From NCBI GenBank assembly GCA_031292275.1, contig JARLHL010000062.1:1-64000 (forward strand): 64,000 bases of DNA, given 5' to 3'. The stretch's first letter is position 1; every line of letters starts with the position of its first letter. Shown piece after piece: positions 26,512 through 35,271 of the stretch. Below the pieces are notes generated by a model that worked only from the letters and a program-made list of their open reading frames with translations, was not told the origin of the DNA and did not search any database. The position numbers and the translations under genes are program-made. Source of the DNA: Desulfocapsaceae bacterium (GTDB lineage: Bacteria; Desulfobacterota; Desulfobulbia; Desulfobulbales; Desulfocapsaceae).

Positions 26512-26585
26512 CCTTTTTTGAAGAAGTCCTTCAATTCCAAGTGATTCAGTATCCGACTCGCGTAATAATACTTTCAGAAAATACG

Positions 26586-27968
26586 ATGCCATTTATTTTT
26601 AATAAATATTACCACATTCGGGACATGGTTTTCTTTTTGGGGGAAGGTCTGCTTATTTTCCTGTCCCTGCTGGCTGTGGATTGTCTGTATAAAGGCGGGT
26701 TCATGGTCCAGATGAACCTGGTGGAAGAACTGGTCAGGTCTGGGATTGTTACCATCGTCTTCCAGCTGAATCTCTATTTTTTCGATCTCTACGATCTGAA
26801 AACCGATTTATCCCTGAGCCTTACAGCGACACGGATAACTCAGGCCTTCGGTGTTGGCTGCATCCTCCTGGGTGGAATATATTACTCCCTGCCTGAGATG
26901 ATCATACCTACCAGGGTATTCTGGACGGGGTACCTGATAATCTGCGTGATGATTCTGATCTGGAGGGCCGTATACTATTTTATCCTGAGAAAAAGGATGT
27001 TTGTCAGGGGCATCATCGTACTGGGAACGGGGAAGCTGGCTGAGGATATCTCCAAGGAGATTGAGGGGAAACAGGACTCCCCCTATAAAATCCTGGGTTT
27101 CATTGGGGAGCGCGAAACGATCTTTAACCCCAATAATGCTCGATTTTATAAAGATCTTGATGAGATAGACCTGCTAACTCCCCGTAGGCAGATGGAGAGG
27201 ATCGTTGTGGCCCTGGATGATCGCCGGGGCAAGACGCCTATCACAAGACTGTTGAAGTTTAAGATGCAGGGGGTCATCATTGAGCAGGGGATCAGCTTTT
27301 ACGAGAGGGTTGCAGGCCGGCTCCTCGTTGAAAATATGGAGCCCAGCTGGATAATTTATTCAGCCGGATTCTCTCTCAGCCGATGGCAGTCCATGGTTAA
27401 ACGCGTAACCGACATCATCCTGTCGCTTGTCATTCTTTTAATTTCGTCTCCGGTCATGCTCCTTGCTGCCCTGATCATCAAAATAGAGTCTGCCGGGCCT
27501 GTTTTTTACAGCCAGGAGCGGGTGGGGAGAAAGAATATTCCTTTCAAGGTCCATAAGTTTCGATCCATGCGTCAGGATGCGGAGCGGAACGGGGCCGTCT
27601 GGGCCATGGAAAATGATAACCGGGTGACCCGTTTCGGGAAGATCAGCAGGAAATTCCGGATTGACGAGCTGCCGCAGTTGTGGAATGTCCTCAATGGCGA
27701 CATGAGTCTTGTCGGACCAAGACCGGAACGGCCTGTCTTTGTGGAGCGGCTGGCGGAAATAATCCCCTTTTACCAGATCCGGCACGATGTAAAACCCGGC
27801 ATTACCGGCTGGGCCCAGGTGTGCTATCCGTACGGCGCCTCGGAGAAGGATGCCTTGCGAAAATTGGAGTACGATCTCTATTATATGAAAAACCTTTCTT
27901 TGTCCATGGACCTCCTTGTGGTATTCATGACTGTAAAGACAGTTCTCTTTAAGAAAGGGTCGAGATAG
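26586..27968 (+). CDS. Undecaprenyl-phosphate sugar phosphotransferase (EpsB/TIGR03013-like)
   Basis: Inner-membrane enzyme that loads the first sugar phosphate onto a polyprenyl carrier for exopolysaccharide. In about 460 residues: four N-terminal helices, a CoA-binding-like cytosolic domain (about 145-260) and a C-terminal bacterial sugar transferase domain with a re-entrant helix (about 265-295), FKVHKFRSM, RIDELPQLWNVLNGDMS and VGPRPERPVF. ATG at 26586 is chosen because the 15 codons before it are unlike the family. Two cNBD-PilZ genes follow 80 nt downstream, suggesting second-messenger control of polysaccharide. No other glycosyltransferase is nearby. Confidence 0.88.
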   Translation: MPFIFNKYYHIRDMVFFLGEGLLIFLSLLAVDCLYKGGFMVQMNLVEELVRSGIVTIVFQLNLYFFDLYDLKTDLSLSLTATRITQAFGVGCILLGGIYYSLPEMIIPTRVFWTGYLIICVMILIWRAVYYFILRKRMFVRGIIVLGTGKLAEDISKEIEGKQDSPYKILGFIGERETIFNPNNARFYKDLDEIDLLTPRRQMERIVVALDDRRGKTPITRLLKFKMQGVIIEQGISFYERVAGRLLVENMEPSWIIYSAGFSLSRWQSMVKRVTDIILSLVILLISSPVMLLAALIIKIESAGPVFYSQERVGRKNIPFKVHKFRSMRQDAERNGAVWAMENDNRVTRFGKISRKFRIDELPQLWNVLNGDMSLVGPRPERPVFVERLAEIIPFYQIRHDVKPGITGWAQVCYPYGASEKDALRKLEYDLYYMKNLSLSMDLLVVFMTVKTVLFKKGSR

Positions 27969-28048: not shown

Positions 28049-31000
28049 ATGACGGATGCTACCAGCCATGATGATGCCTTGGAGGCCTTGAAGGCCTTTA
28101 ATACTGCAATAACAACGACGCGCCTCTATCCTGCAGATGCGCCGCAGGTCCAGGTCTCCGTGGAAAAGGCCTATCAGGCTGTCAAATATTATCTTCGTAA
28201 CAGTGGGGCCCTTGTCTTCAGTATAGAAGGCGATGAGGGCATGCTCTGCGGCAGTCCCATTCAGAAACAGACACTGGGAAAGCTGCATGGGGCCGACGTT
28301 TTTCAGCATTTGAAAATTCTCGGGCTTCCTTTTACAGTGATCCGGCCGGGCACTGACCGGAAGGCCTTCAAACAGATCCTTTCCTTTTTTATTACCTCTC
28401 CTCAGCGGATCAAGCTGGAGGGCGGCGGGGTGGTCTACGCTGCCCAGATGGGGCTTGGCGATGTCTTCCCGGCGATTTACAGCCCAGCGCAGGCTCCGGC
28501 CGATCCGGAGGAAGTGCTGGTGTCGCTTTCCTCTACCTCCCTGGATATACAGGAAGAGTGGATTACCTTTCTCCTTGGAAGTCATGAAAAGCTGGAGGCG
28601 GGCCTTGAGATTCTTGAAATTTTTCAAGATGCTGAACTGGCAGCGAGGATCATAACTGCAGGTATTGCCAGAGTGCTCAGCCAGGGACGAGAGAGAGAAA
28701 GAACGGAATATGCCCCTTTCTTTCGCCGGATATTCGCGCGCGCAGATGAAGTCATCAGCCAGAGCCAGAAGGGAGAGATTGCCTTGAAGGCGTCGGTCCT
28801 TCTCCTTGAAGCGCTGCCGAGTCCGGTTCTCAGCATCCTGTTGTCTCAAGATTTTTCAGGTGTTTTCGGAGAGATCCTCTTTGCGACGCTCATGACCAGG
28901 CTTGACAACGAACACTTCAGAGAGGTGATCGGGCATCTTAAGACCAGGAAGGAGGCGGAGGGCAGGCAATCCGGCGACGGTACTGTATGCGCCCGTTTGC
29001 TCGATACGGTCAGAGGAAGGCAGTTTCTGGCCCTGGAAAAGGCACGGGCCCTCATGGAAGAGGGCGAAAAGGAAAGACGAAATAAGCGCATCCAGACCGG
29101 ACTGAATGGGGTCCTGCAGGGAAATACCGCCGCATTGCAGAACGATGAGGTCGCCGTTCATCTGCCGACGACGGTTGAGCGTCTGCTCCGAAACGGCAAG
29201 GATGCTGCCGCGGCCCTGCTCATCAAAAACGTTGCCAAGGAACTGCTGAAAGGGGATGAAGAGATGCAGGCCCGGTTAAGTCAGAGCCTGGGCCATATCG
29301 GCGAGATCCTTCTGCAGGCCGAGAAATGGGACTGGCTGGATACCCTGGCCGGCCCCTTGCTGGTCTGGGTTAACGGGACAGATAAGGGCAACGCGGTTTA
29401 TGAGCGGATTCTCACCGTCCTTCAGCATATCATGCTGCATGGCTGGCGGGTCGGCAATAACAGGATAGCGGATCAGATTTTGACTGTTGTTTTTAAGATC
29501 CGCTCAGGGGCCATCCGTAAGTCACCGGCAGTACAGGACCTTACGGGGCAGATTCAGGACCGGTTTATCGATCGGTCACTCCTGCCGGGGCTTCTGGCCC
29601 GGTGTCTGGCAGACCCTGCTGATGAGACGCTGGGCCAGAGGCTCAGCATGCAGGGGCCTGTCGCTGCACGATTCCTGATCCGAAGTCTGCTTGCTTCAAC
29701 GAATGCCGGGGAGCGTATCGGTGTATTGGATCTTCTGGCCAATATGGGTCCCCTGCTGGCCCCGGTGCTCATCGAGCAGCTACCCACGCCCATGCCCTGG
29801 TATGGCAAGCGGAATCTCCTGAAATTGCTGGCTGAAACAGGAGGGGAGGAGCATACGGCGGCGGCGCTGGGGTTTTTGAACCACGACGATCTGCGGGTGC
29901 AGCGGGAGGCCTTCTTCTGTGTCCACAAGATCAGCGGTTCCGGCAGAAAACGGGCCCTGCTCCAGGCCTTGGCGCTGGCTGGCGAGGCGATGAAGGGGCA
30001 GGTCGTCAAGGCGCTTGGTCCCCTGCTGGATGAGGAGGTCATAGCGGCCCTGGCCGATCTTCTTGTGGACCTGCAGAATTTCTCCCCCGATGTCAGAGGT
30101 CCGCTTACTCAGCAGATCTGCCGGACCCTGTCCCGGTCTCCGTCGAGGAGAGGAAAGGATGCGCTGGAAAATGTACTGTCTGCCAAGGCAAAGAACAGTT
30201 CTGTACGGCTGGATCCTGAAATCAGAAAGGCTATCGAAGGATCCCTGCGACAGATTGAAATCAATCAGCGGAAGGAAGCCAGGGCTTCCCGTCAGAAGGA
30301 TATGCCGGTCTTGCCGCAGTCCGGTGCGGGGATGGGGAATGGCGTCCACGGCTATGAATTTATAAGTGACTTTCCTGAGGAACTGGAGATTAGGAGGTTG
30401 CTTGAGCAAATGAACAAGGCCAAGGCTAAAGTACTCTTGGTGGATTTGATCGGCAAGGCGGCCAGAGTGAAGCAGTTTCGGCAGGCGGGAAAACTGCGTG
30501 ACTGGCTGATTCAAATCGATCCCATGGCCCTTACGGATATCGTCCGGACTGCTGAAATAATAGAAAACGAGAAGGCCTCTTCCATTGACAAGGATCATCT
30601 GGGAACTTGGTTTTCTCTCTATGATATGCTCAGCACTGAGGAGTTCAATGCCCTCTATCATTCTCTGGACTATGCGCAATATGCCGCTGAGAGTGTCATC
30701 GTCAAGCAGGGGGATGTCCTGTCCTCGCTCTTTTTTATCAATAGCGGCAGGGTGAAACTCACCTATAGTGAAAACGGTTCCGATACCCTGGTTAAAATTA
30801 TGGGACGGGGTGAGGTCGTCGGGGCGGACTCGTTCTTTGATGCCTCCGTCTGGACGGTCAGAGTCACAGCCCTTGGTTCCGCTGAGATTTCCGTCCTGAC
30901 CTTGGATAAGGTAAGAACTTGGAATAAGGAATATCCGGGCCTAGAGGAGAAACTGCGTGAGTACTGCCTGAAATTTGACAGGCTCAAAGATATTTTCCTG

Positions 31001-31429
31001 AAAAGGGGAAACAACAGGAGGGGCGAAGAGAGGTTCGCGATCTCCGCGCAGATCACGACGGCTCTCCTCGGCCACGGGAAGGATGTCGGCATTATCACCA
31101 AGGGCGAACTCATTGACATCTCGGTAGGCGGGCTCTCCTGTACCATTACAGTCGCCCAGAAAAAGAATGTCCGATTCCTGCTGGGAAGAAACGTGCGCAT
31201 TGGATTCCCGGCAGGATTGGCGGTCTTGGACCGGGTCCTTGCTGTTGACGGGACATTTGTTGCCATTCATCCCTGTCGGGCACAGCATAATGAATACCGT
31301 GCCAATATCCATTTTGACCAGCCTTTCAGCAAGGAGGACCTCCTTGAGGTCGTCGTGGCCGGGAAAAAACAGGACGATGTTCAAGCCGTTTCCTTGGCCT
31401 TTTCCGAGGCGGAAAAAAGGGGTTGCTGA
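28049..31429 (+). CDS. Large HEAT-like repeat, cNBD-like and PilZ domain protein
   Basis: A 1126-residue soluble protein. An N-terminal region (about 1-130) resembles segments found next to HEAT repeats in signalling proteins; residues about 370-720 are helical repeats of HEAT/ARM style (LLDEEVIAALADLL, AALGFLNHDDLRVQREAF). A cyclic-nucleotide-binding-like domain follows (about 865-985), then PilZ (990-1110) with the c-di-GMP motif Arg991-x3-Arg995 and D1023-ISVGG. The canonical cNMP phosphate-binding Arg is not evident (SVWTVRVT). GGGAG lies 9 nt before the ATG. The last 330 residues are paralogous to the next gene. Role is inferred as a second-messenger receptor. Confidence 0.8.
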   Translation: MTDATSHDDALEALKAFNTAITTTRLYPADAPQVQVSVEKAYQAVKYYLRNSGALVFSIEGDEGMLCGSPIQKQTLGKLHGADVFQHLKILGLPFTVIRPGTDRKAFKQILSFFITSPQRIKLEGGGVVYAAQMGLGDVFPAIYSPAQAPADPEEVLVSLSSTSLDIQEEWITFLLGSHEKLEAGLEILEIFQDAELAARIITAGIARVLSQGRERERTEYAPFFRRIFARADEVISQSQKGEIALKASVLLLEALPSPVLSILLSQDFSGVFGEILFATLMTRLDNEHFREVIGHLKTRKEAEGRQSGDGTVCARLLDTVRGRQFLALEKARALMEEGEKERRNKRIQTGLNGVLQGNTAALQNDEVAVHLPTTVERLLRNGKDAAAALLIKNVAKELLKGDEEMQARLSQSLGHIGEILLQAEKWDWLDTLAGPLLVWVNGTDKGNAVYERILTVLQHIMLHGWRVGNNRIADQILTVVFKIRSGAIRKSPAVQDLTGQIQDRFIDRSLLPGLLARCLADPADETLGQRLSMQGPVAARFLIRSLLASTNAGERIGVLDLLANMGPLLAPVLIEQLPTPMPWYGKRNLLKLLAETGGEEHTAAALGFLNHDDLRVQREAFFCVHKISGSGRKRALLQALALAGEAMKGQVVKALGPLLDEEVIAALADLLVDLQNFSPDVRGPLTQQICRTLSRSPSRRGKDALENVLSAKAKNSSVRLDPEIRKAIEGSLRQIEINQRKEARASRQKDMPVLPQSGAGMGNGVHGYEFISDFPEELEIRRLLEQMNKAKAKVLLVDLIGKAARVKQFRQAGKLRDWLIQIDPMALTDIVRTAEIIENEKASSIDKDHLGTWFSLYDMLSTEEFNALYHSLDYAQYAAESVIVKQGDVLSSLFFINSGRVKLTYSENGSDTLVKIMGRGEVVGADSFFDASVWTVRVTALGSAEISVLTLDKVRTWNKEYPGLEEKLREYCLKFDRLKDIFLKRGNNRRGEERFAISAQITTALLGHGKDVGIITKGELIDISVGGLSCTITVAQKKNVRFLLGRNVRIGFPAGLAVLDRVLAVDGTFVAIHPCRAQHNEYRANIHFDQPFSKEDLLEVVVAGKKQDDVQAVSLAFSEAEKRGC

Positions 31430-31588
31430 ATCTTTCACGATCATGTTGTTTGACGGCGGTCAGGTTGTGAAAAATAACCCGTTCCTGCTGCAAAGGGAGG
31501 CCTTGATTTCCAAAGGCCTGCTACGGTTGTTTCAGGCTGGGATGCAATGCCTGATGCCGATGAAAGTGAGCCTTCTTGTGCTTTTTCC

Positions 31589-31617
31589 TGTACAGCTCTT
31601 GAGTTTCTCAATATAGT
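31589..31617 (+). promoter_or_regulatory. Possible internal promoter before second cNBD-PilZ gene
   Basis: TGTACA (31589-31594), a 17-nt spacer, then TATAGT (31612-31617), inside the 261-nt gap between the paralogues. It would allow the second gene to be expressed apart from the first. Confidence 0.35.
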
Positions 31618-31690
31618 TCCTTTTCCTGCGGGAAGTATTTTCCAGGACTCATTGTATTTCATCGGCGGTGGAGGACCGCAATCAAAACGT

Positions 31691-33397
31691 ATGGAAAAAC
31701 CCTTCCATGAAATTTCAACCATCAGCACCGTGCAGGGGATATTTCTTGTTTCCGAGCAGGGTGAAGTCCTTTTTGAGTCGGATCAGAGATGGTTGTCTGC
31801 AGAGGATGGGTTCATCGGAATGAGAAGGACAGTCAGATCGCTGTCTCTTATGGAAAAGTCCGTTTTCTACTTTGAAAACGGTTCATTATATGTTGTGAAA
31901 ACAGACCTTGGCTACCTGCTCATCAGCAGGGCGGGGGCCGTCTTTGATCTGCTGGTCACCGATGCCTGCAATGCGGTCATCGGAAGACTTGCGGAGCCGG
32001 ACAGTAGAAAAAGACTGCTTTTACACCTGCTTGCCCAGTCACGCCCCGCTCTGAAGCCGCAGATCGTTAAGGCCCTGGTGCCTTATGGCGATATCGAGGT
32101 TGCCCGGGAATTGGTCCGTCTCTTACCTGAAGGCAGAACCTGCAATCTGGAGGTCCGGAACCGCCTTCTCCTTCATGTTTGTCAGGCTCTGGGGTATCAT
32201 CCCTTCGAATTCGTTCTTCATGCCCTGAAAGATTTCCTGAAAAACCCGGGAAAGGTCAATGATGCCGTCCTGGGATCTGCCAGCGTGGCCGTCGAGCAGA
32301 TTGAAATGGCATTGCCGGAAAAACAGCGGGTTCAGACGGTGCTGCACCCGGTTGCGCCTTCAGGCGAAAACCGGCCTGGGAGCGGAAAAGACGATAACCA
32401 GCCCATTACCGATCTTCCAGAGGAACGGCGGGTTTTAGAGTACCTCTCCGCAGGGGAAAACCAGAAGGGCAGGCAGCTTCTGCGGGAGATGATCACTGCA
32501 ACAGCTCGGAAGAGGCGGTTTAAGGAAGCGGAAAAGCTGCGGGAATGGTTGATCAGGATCGACCCCATGGCTCTTTCCGATATCATTGCCGCAGCCGAAA
32601 TAATTGAAAATGAAAAGACAGCCGCAATCAACAAGGACCATCTTGCAGTCTGGTCATCCTTGCGTGACAGCCTTGATTCCGAGGGGTACTCAACCTTCTA
32701 CCACTCCTTGGAGCATAAACACTATGCCAGCGGAGAGATGGTTGTCCGCCAGGGATCGCAGCAATCTTCCCTCTATTTCGTCAACAGCGGCAGGGTTGAG
32801 CTTTTTTTCAAGGAAAAAGGGAAGGAGATTAAGGTCAAGACCATAGGGGCGGGAGAAGTCCTGGGGGCCGGGACGTTCTTTGAGACATCGGTCTGGACCG
32901 TGAGCGCCCGCAGCCTGGGGGCGGATCTTTCCCGCCTGAAGATAGATACCATGCTGCAATGGCAGGCGGATTACCCTGCTCTTGAAGGAAAACTGAATGA
33001 TTTCTGCATGCGGTTCAAGATTCCTCTGGAGGCCTTCAAAAAGACGGGTCAGGATCGTCGGGAGTATGAGCGTTATCGGCTGGAAGGCCGAATCTCCATG
33101 GCCCTGCTGGATAGGGACGGCAAGGAAGTAGGGGTTGGAGCTAAGGGTGACCTCTTTGATATTTCCGCCGGAGGGGTGGCCTTCTTCCTGCGCATTTCTC
33201 AGAAAAAGAATGCCCGGCTGCTCTTCGGCAGGAAGGTGCGTCTGACCATTGCCTCGAAAACTTCTGTGGGTTTTAGCATAACCGGCGAGATCGTGGCGGT
33301 TCGCAGCCAACCTGTCGTTGGAAATGAATATTCCGTGCATGTCTGTTTTTCGCAGGTGCTGGACGAAGGTAAGGTTCATGCTCTTATCTCTTCCTAG
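31691..33397 (+). CDS. Roadblock-like, cNBD-like and PilZ domain protein
   Basis: A 568-residue paralogue of the preceding protein. Residues 1-110 (ISTVQGIFLVSEQGEVLF, then LGYLLISRAGAVFDLL) look like a Roadblock/LC7 fold; a helical region follows. The conserved linker DPMALSDIIAAAEIIENEK leads into a cNMP-binding-like domain (about 330-450) and a PilZ domain with Arg457-x3-Arg461 and D490-ISAGG. As in its neighbour, the Arg of the cNMP pocket is not evident (SVWTVSAR). ATG at 31691 matches the domain start; the frame to 31547 adds unconvincing sequence. A hairpin begins just after the stop codon. Confidence 0.78.
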   Translation: MEKPFHEISTISTVQGIFLVSEQGEVLFESDQRWLSAEDGFIGMRRTVRSLSLMEKSVFYFENGSLYVVKTDLGYLLISRAGAVFDLLVTDACNAVIGRLAEPDSRKRLLLHLLAQSRPALKPQIVKALVPYGDIEVARELVRLLPEGRTCNLEVRNRLLLHVCQALGYHPFEFVLHALKDFLKNPGKVNDAVLGSASVAVEQIEMALPEKQRVQTVLHPVAPSGENRPGSGKDDNQPITDLPEERRVLEYLSAGENQKGRQLLREMITATARKRRFKEAEKLREWLIRIDPMALSDIIAAAEIIENEKTAAINKDHLAVWSSLRDSLDSEGYSTFYHSLEHKHYASGEMVVRQGSQQSSLYFVNSGRVELFFKEKGKEIKVKTIGAGEVLGAGTFFETSVWTVSARSLGADLSRLKIDTMLQWQADYPALEGKLNDFCMRFKIPLEAFKKTGQDRREYERYRLEGRISMALLDRDGKEVGVGAKGDLFDISAGGVAFFLRISQKKNARLLFGRKVRLTIASKTSVGFSITGEIVAVRSQPVVGNEYSVHVCFSQVLDEGKVHALISS

Positions 33398-33483: not shown

Positions 33484-35271
33484 ATGACTGAATATGTTGA
33501 CGCAATTGCTCAGTTTTATCAGACCCATCTCCCAGGCGGGCGGTTGGAGAAAAATATTCTCACGGCCGATTGTCCCTTCTGTTCGCAAAAAGGGGGGACG
33601 CCGGCGGGGAAGATCGTTGTTTTCCTGAATGGGAATGGCTTCTTTTATGGCTATTTCCGCTGTCTGAACCGTTGTCTTCCCGGAGGCTTTCCGCTCTGGT
33701 TTGCCAGAAATGCGGGCATATCTCCCACCCAGGTCCCGGGATTTGACCCCGACCGGGAGCCGTTCCTGCTCCAGACCGATTATCCGGCCCGGAATATGAA
33801 TGCCGAGATAAAAACTTATCAGGACAGGATGATGCCGGAGATCCTGGCCCGTTTTCAGCAGGCGGATGTCTCTTTTGCAGTATTGCAGGAGATGGGTATC
33901 GGCTTCAATGGCCGGTATATCGTCTATCCCTATATCCAGGCCGACGGAAACTGCTATTCGGCGCGCTGCATCTTTCCCGATAAGGCCGGTGACTTCTTTT
34001 GGCATGGTGACGAGAGCCTCTTCGTCGACAGGCTGCAGCTCTTCAATGTCCAGGATATCGAGCGCTGTGAGAATGGGACCCTGTTCCTCTGCGAGGGAGA
34101 GGACAATCTGCTGACCTTGAAGCAGCTCGGTTTTCCGGGGATAGCGGTCCCCGACTGCCAGGTGCTGGAGGCCTTGGACCCTAACCGCTTCGCCTTCATC
34201 GACACCCTCTTTGTCGCCATGGTCAATAATGCTGAATCGGAGGCTGCGGCCAGGGCTGTGGCGGCCAGGATCGGCTATAAGGTCCGCCTCTTCGACTGGC
34301 CCCGGGGGATGTCGCGGAACTTCAACCTCTGGCAGTTGGCTAGGGATAAGGGGAAAAATTTCCGCTCTGCGGTCTCTTCAATGATCGGGGCCTCCCGGGC
34401 CTTTTCTCCCTTTGCCAGCCCGGAGAGGGAGGAAATCCGTTTTTTCGATCGCCTGGCCCAGGAGAAGGGGGAAGAATACGGGGCCCTGCGTTCGGGGTTT
34501 GCAAAGCTTGATCTGGCCTTGGACGGCATCCATGGGATCAATGTCCTGGGCGGGGCCCCCAAGATCGGCAAGTCGTCCTTCATGATCCAGATCGCCACCG
34601 AGATGGCCAGAAGGGGGGCGCCAGTCCTCTACTATGACTTTGAAAATGGCCGTCAGCGGATCTATCAGCGGACGCTGGCGCGAATGAGCCGGCTGTCGGC
34701 CGAGAGGATCCGGCAGAGAGACTGGTCAGCGCCGGAGGAACAGCGCTATACCTTGGCTTGCCAGGAATTCAAGAAGATGCTCTTTTCCTTCAGGGTGGTC
34801 AATGACCGCAAGCTGACGCCGGAGATCATGCGCCGTCACATCGATTTTATCCGCCATGAAACCCGGTCGTCCTATACCGTGGTCGTCATCGACAGCCTGC
34901 ATAAGCTGCCGTTCAAAGACCTGTCCGAACGGCGTTCCGGCATCGACGGCTGGTTGCGTCAGCTGGAATCCATCCGCGACGATATGCAGGTCTCCTTTCT
35001 GGTCATCTCGGAGCTGACCCGCGGCGATGAGGGCTCTTACAAGGAGACGCCGCATATGGGTATTTTTAAGGGCTCCGGGGATATCGAATACAGTGCCGAT
35101 AACGCCATGGTGCTGTTTCCCGACTGGGACCAGATGGGAGGGACTCGGGAGCGCAGCAATGCCCTCTGGCTGGTGGCCAGCCGTGAGCACAGCCCCGGAC
35201 TGGTTGGCCGCTATATCCTCGACTATCCCTACTGGGGCTTTATCGAGAGGGACGGGGAGGCTCAGGACTGA
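33484..35271 (+). CDS. Primase-helicase-like protein (T7 gp4/Twinkle-like domain order)
   Basis: A 595-residue protein with a zinc-binding N-terminus (Cys30, Cys33, Cys60, Cys64), a Toprim-like domain (about 180-280) that keeps CEGEDNLL but has MVNNAE where the DxD metal pair should be, and a DnaB/RecA-like ATPase domain: Walker A GGAPKIGKSS (356-365), Walker B TVVVIDSLHKL and a sensor strand FLVISELTRG. Domain order matches phage-type primase-helicases, but the degenerate Toprim argues against active priming. AGGA is 9 nt before the ATG. No phage gene is near. Function is inferred. Confidence 0.72.
   Translation: MTEYVDAIAQFYQTHLPGGRLEKNILTADCPFCSQKGGTPAGKIVVFLNGNGFFYGYFRCLNRCLPGGFPLWFARNAGISPTQVPGFDPDREPFLLQTDYPARNMNAEIKTYQDRMMPEILARFQQADVSFAVLQEMGIGFNGRYIVYPYIQADGNCYSARCIFPDKAGDFFWHGDESLFVDRLQLFNVQDIERCENGTLFLCEGEDNLLTLKQLGFPGIAVPDCQVLEALDPNRFAFIDTLFVAMVNNAESEAAARAVAARIGYKVRLFDWPRGMSRNFNLWQLARDKGKNFRSAVSSMIGASRAFSPFASPEREEIRFFDRLAQEKGEEYGALRSGFAKLDLALDGIHGINVLGGAPKIGKSSFMIQIATEMARRGAPVLYYDFENGRQRIYQRTLARMSRLSAERIRQRDWSAPEEQRYTLACQEFKKMLFSFRVVNDRKLTPEIMRRHIDFIRHETRSSYTVVVIDSLHKLPFKDLSERRSGIDGWLRQLESIRDDMQVSFLVISELTRGDEGSYKETPHMGIFKGSGDIEYSADNAMVLFPDWDQMGGTRERSNALWLVASREHSPGLVGRYILDYPYWGFIERDGEAQD

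Follow-up and report, generated by a model that had tools for sequence, protein, structure and literature searches.

Two neighbouring genes in the window, by which we mean the whole 64,000-nucleotide stretch of DNA analysed here, encode proteins A and B. We favour, with some reserve, the reading that both are c-di-GMP receptors of a lineage-specific family, alike in their sensing module and with N-termini that choose different partners, and that their cNMP-binding-type domain (cNBD) does not sense cAMP or cGMP. According to this model, the PilZ domain would bind c-di-GMP, the rewritten cNBD would either relay this signal to the N-terminal module or bind another ligand, and that module would pick the partner. 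Such proteins would add to the PilZ receptors a family composed of a shared sensing module and exchangeable N-terminal modules, and they reveal a cNBD subclass with a rewritten but strongly conserved cassette.

An earlier note on this DNA knew of no description of such a pair, and the open-access literature agrees with it, as no title or abstract there described a cNBD-PilZ fusion receptor and none combined PilZ, HEAT repeat and c-di-GMP; because only open-access papers were covered, the absence of this architecture is no proof of novelty. YcgR and other multi-domain PilZ receptors likewise carry a PilZ domain with the RxxxR and [DN]xSxxG motifs on a variable N-terminal part, but A and B have cNBD-like and HEAT or Roadblock-like modules before the PilZ domain.

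Domain architecture of proteins A and B

Protein A (1126 aa; 28049..31429, + strand, as are all window features given below) is built of an N-terminal helical domain, a HEAT/ARM-like solenoid, a linker, the cNBD and the PilZ domain. The N-terminal domain (residues 1-140; 28049..28468), consisting of two long helices, a small sheet and helices, gave no match in Pfam or NCBIfam. It is followed by an all-helical HEAT/ARM-like region (residues 153-750; 28505..30298), seen as helices in the AlphaFold2 model, by the linker helices shared with B (residues 776-872, IDPMAL...AEIIENEK; 30374..30664), by the cNBD with its non-canonical cassette (residues 863-975; 30635..30973) and by the PilZ domain with RGEER and DISVGG (residues 989-1097; 31013..31339). 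Pfam matched cNMP_binding (E 3.7e-14), PilZ (E 6.3e-4) and HEAT_2 (E 1.8e-5) in A, and found these domains in 38/38, 28/38 and 38/38 of its orthologues, respectively. The PilZ match of the whole protein reached 20.5 bits against a curated Pfam cut-off of 22.5 bits, and it was above the cut-off in the genome search.

The open frame of protein B extends from 31547, but because the orthologues begin at Met 31691, the start is most likely there, giving a protein of 568 aa (31691..33397). A Roadblock/LC7-like N-terminal domain (residues 1-102; 31691..31996) precedes HEAT-like helices homologous to the end of the A solenoid (residues 103-207; 31997..32311), linker helices (residues 244-320; 32420..32650), a cNBD with a non-canonical cassette (residues 330-442; 32678..33016) and a PilZ domain with REYER and DISAGG (residues 455-561; 33053..33373). 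Its Pfam matches were cNMP_binding (E 2.2e-13) and PilZ (E 1.7e-6, above the Pfam cut-off), and among its orthologues cNMP_binding was found in 20/20, PilZ in 20/20 and HEAT_2 in 11/20. The two neighbouring open reading frames with a common C-terminal module that the earlier note had described are thus real: the C-terminal ~330 aa of A and B, comprising linker helices, cNBD and PilZ, are 42% identical, and BLASTP aligned residues 633-1091 of A with B over 464 columns at 39% identity (E 3e-98).

The N-terminal domain of B was examined against the Roadblock/LC7 fold. Its predicted topology, a-b-b-a-b-b-b-a, fits a Roadblock-like domain such as that of MglB, and hhalign gave a weak match to Roadblock/LC7 (90 columns, E 0.0028, probability 11%). 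Unlike MglB, however, the domain lies below detection by Pfam PF03259 (Robl_LC7), which matched neither B nor the solo homologue of this domain, and it is fused to HEAT-cNBD-PilZ. Foldseek searches with the whole models returned mostly cNBD matches and neither confirmed nor excluded a Roadblock fold. The Roadblock identity is therefore weakly supported, and of the proposed division, HEAT repeats in one protein and a Roadblock domain in the other, the HEAT_2 part holds for A, whereas B has HEAT-like helices as well.

In the AlphaFold2 models (A: mean pLDDT 83.5, pTM 0.44; B: mean pLDDT 82.6, pTM 0.51) confidence was fair within domains and pTM was low, so that the arrangement of the domains relative to one another is uncertain. 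No Rfam element was found at the A-B locus. B gave weak PADLOC matches that fall within the cNBD and do not point to a defence system.

A lineage-specific family with a rewritten cNBD cassette

The genome of the window contains five family members, namely A, B and copies on three other contigs: a B-like copy that lacks the N-terminal domain (C104), a 783-aa HEAT-cNBD-PilZ protein (M type; C35) and a 329-aa cNBD-PilZ protein (S type; C108). Full or partial A types were present in 37/48 family-level genomes, the window's own included, many of these survey genomes being fragmented assemblies with genes called by a simple ORF script. In an even sample of the phylum the shared module was found at E <= 1e-20 in 9/247 genomes, again counting the own genome, and a scan of named genomes yielded only one relative. 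In the tree, from which the classes of a few sequences were set (L109 and L146 as M type, L152 as B type), the B sequences form a single clade nested among the A types, which points to an origin of B by duplication of an A-type gene.

Several observations concern individual members of the family. In G017 the A gene is broken by a stop into pieces of 916 and 207 aa (L058). A genome of another family (G207) encodes an A-type protein of 1680 aa (L238:3014-8056) with a sugar transferase upstream, and this protein repeats the part matching positions ~183-303 of the A profile. One and the same gene, by sequence a Dus-like tRNA-dihydrouridine synthase, lies directly downstream of the M-type paralogue (HEAT-cNBD-PilZ, ~780 aa; L129, relatives L114-L133) in 18/20 loci.

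Both window copies have complete RxxxR and [DN]xSxxG motifs in the PilZ domain, as do 37/40 A, 21/21 B and 22/22 M sequences, that is, 80/83 long-form or B-type sequences, and the RRxxxR and DxSxGG columns are among the most conserved of the C-terminal module. PilZ was not among the Foldseek matches listed for the two models, so its assignment rests on sequence. The claim that both proteins combine a cNMP-binding-like domain with a PilZ domain with intact motifs was borne out by the Pfam matches and by these near-invariant motifs, and judging from the latter the PilZ domains of A and B very probably bind c-di-GMP.

The fold of the cNBD is clear. Structure prediction had been proposed as its test, and in addition to Pfam, Foldseek matched the cNBD to GlxR, PKG and related structures, with an rmsd of ~2.6 A over ~140 columns against cAMP-bound GlxR. 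Aligned with cAMP-bound GlxR, the cNBD has a Trp at the position of the cassette Arg, which together with the cassette Glu contacts ribose and phosphate in canonical domains. In the phosphate-binding-cassette loop of A (residues 921-941; 30809..30871) Glu is replaced by Ala and Arg by Trp, and the loop contains an invariant SVWT. The same rewriting extends over the family: the cAMP-contacting Arg was present in 0/83 and the cassette Glu in 1/81 of the A, B and M sequences, and the short S forms also lack the Arg but keep the Glu in 13/17. A and B thus share their cNBD fold with the CRP/FNR-type proteins GlxR and CRP but differ from them in the substitutions Glu to Ala/Val/Gly and Arg to Trp; they are also distinct in that no DNA-binding domain was detected in either protein, nor was a membrane domain. 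The positions S933, W935 and T936 of A, which form the S-x-W-T loop, are 96-99% conserved, equal to the PilZ motif. Conservation of this loop without the Glu and Arg suggests that it is under selection, though not for the canonical cAMP/cGMP contact.

These data bear on the possibility that the pair integrates two ligands, with cAMP or cGMP bound by the cNBD, c-di-GMP bound by PilZ and the output gated jointly. Functional cNMP pockets do occur in c-di-GMP enzymes, namely the cNMP-EAL enzyme Bd1971 (PMC6717892) and the cNMP-GGDEF enzyme XC_0249 (PMC3770947), which, like A and B, join a cNMP-type domain to the c-di-GMP network in one polypeptide, and together with the clear cNBD fold and the near-invariant cassette-loop positions, a possible sign of selection on a pocket, this precedent speaks for such an integrator. 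A and B, however, are not enzymes with functional cAMP/cGMP pockets but PilZ proteins in which the cassette is rewritten. None of 83 sequences has the phosphate-contacting Arg, whose position is taken by Trp in the alignment with cAMP-bound GlxR, and 80/81 lack the Glu, so that sensing of cAMP or cGMP is unlikely. We thus consider the two-ligand reading very unlikely, and the earlier suggestion of a second ligand is not upheld as far as a canonical one is concerned.

Conserved neighbours of the A gene

Gene order supplies candidate partners for both the A type and the B type. Among 40 A-type loci, which come from related genomes and so are not phylogenetically independent, a Maf gene lay 1-2 genes upstream in 36, a primase-helicase-like gene 1-2 genes downstream in 36, and both were present in 33, several of the exceptions being contig ends. 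At 32 loci A directly preceded the primase-helicase gene, with spacing from an overlap to a gap of 93 nt, one gap of 263 nt and a median of 39 nt. The block reads Maf-A-(primase-helicase)-TrmFO-3D-MutL on the chromosome, and A is likewise next to the primase-helicase gene in family f12 of the same order, where it is strongly diverged (918 and 1680 aa).

In the window this conserved neighbour is a gp4/DnaB-like primase-helicase-type protein (33484..35271). Its zinc-finger pattern CPFC...C..C is invariant and its Walker A conserved, and it resembles phage primase/helicase as well as DnaB-like helicases in profile or sequence matches; the TOPRIM-like part of the window copy appears incomplete. 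Following our preferred model, A may act through its HEAT solenoid on this downstream ATPase, or with it in a common process, as gene order would suggest. In a bolder form, A would be a c-di-GMP-gated regulator of a chromosomal primase-helicase, its duplicate B would have been re-targeted to a REC-PATAN pathway by the Roadblock-like domain, and the S-x-W-T cNBDs would be a class with a different ligand; A would then link c-di-GMP directly to DNA metabolism, and we rate this version as improbable.

The tie of A to the primase-helicase gene is not obligatory, because some genomes have the latter but no A (G027, G037, G044 and members of other families). Where A is missing, Maf and the primase-helicase gene can still be direct neighbours, and as Maf, the primase-helicase, TrmFO and MutL are housekeeping genes, the arrangement could be a stable housekeeping block with no functional tie to A, the targets of A and B lying elsewhere. 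The short or overlapping gaps at most loci, and the fact that A and the primase-helicase gene are neighbours in a second family too despite strong divergence of the A proteins, argue against this explanation, which we hold to be fairly unlikely.

Upstream of A in the window lies a polyprenyl glycosylphosphotransferase gene (26541..27968) matching TIGR03013 (XrtA/PEP-CTERM-associated EpsB_2), and it was proposed earlier that A and B follow such a sugar transferase. This is correct for the window but not as a general rule: the gene adjoins A in only 3/~41 loci of family f1 (the window, G001 and G017) and in G207 of f12, and it was absent at ~38/41 sampled f1 loci (a few of which lack upstream sequence), where Maf usually comes directly before A. 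PilZ proteins often control polysaccharide, and the pair could control an exopolysaccharide made via this enzyme; the order sugar transferase-A, which recurs in G001, G017 and, in another family, G207, may for that reason be ancestral. Given its absence at most f1 loci, we judge this possibility unlikely.

Neighbours of the B gene and MglA/MglB-like genes

The conserved pairing of the two receptors in related genomes, which the earlier note had expected, was not found: A and B stand in tandem at just 4/20 true B loci (G000, G001, G020 and G032), and A occurs mostly without an adjacent B. In G017, B comes after the primase-helicase gene. Outside the tandem, a REC-DUF4388 (PATAN) regulator gene lies next to B on the opposite strand, in convergent orientation and 1-97 nt away, at 14/16 loci, the remaining 2 loci running into contig ends. 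Solo homologues of the B N-terminal domain (E 1e-19 to 1e-24) were also found near a REC-PATAN regulator gene in G000, G001, G003, G020, G032 and G046. The genome of the window has such a homologue directly after a REC-PATAN regulator gene, on contig C107, where a Zn_ribbon-dCache-HAMP protein, the regulator and the solo homologue are encoded in a row (L241:5383-8454). No likeness to Roadblock was detectable C-terminally in the REC-PATAN regulator.

By this gene order the REC-PATAN response regulator may be the partner of B, reached through the Roadblock-like domain, and B would then link phosphorelay signals with c-di-GMP at a polarity or pilus-type complex. For cyanobacteria, an action of PATAN regulators on type IV pili has been proposed (PMC7690835). 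The window genome itself speaks against our preferred reading, as B there adjoins A and not a REC-PATAN regulator gene.

On contig C33 of the same genome (L242:5775-6869) an MglB-like gene (NF052242, below cut-off) adjoins a Ras/MglA-like GTPase gene, and this MglA/MglB-like system is possibly a further partner candidate for B. Of the control of polysaccharide or polarity suggested earlier, the polarity and motility part thus gains indirect support for B from its REC-PATAN neighbour and from this pair, whereas the sugar-transferase link fails as a general rule. A 1083-aa protein without a Pfam match is encoded after the MglA/MglB-like pair, and contig C65 (L243:7214-8497) carries a REC-DUF4388-Robl_LC7 fusion near an NtrC-type regulator.
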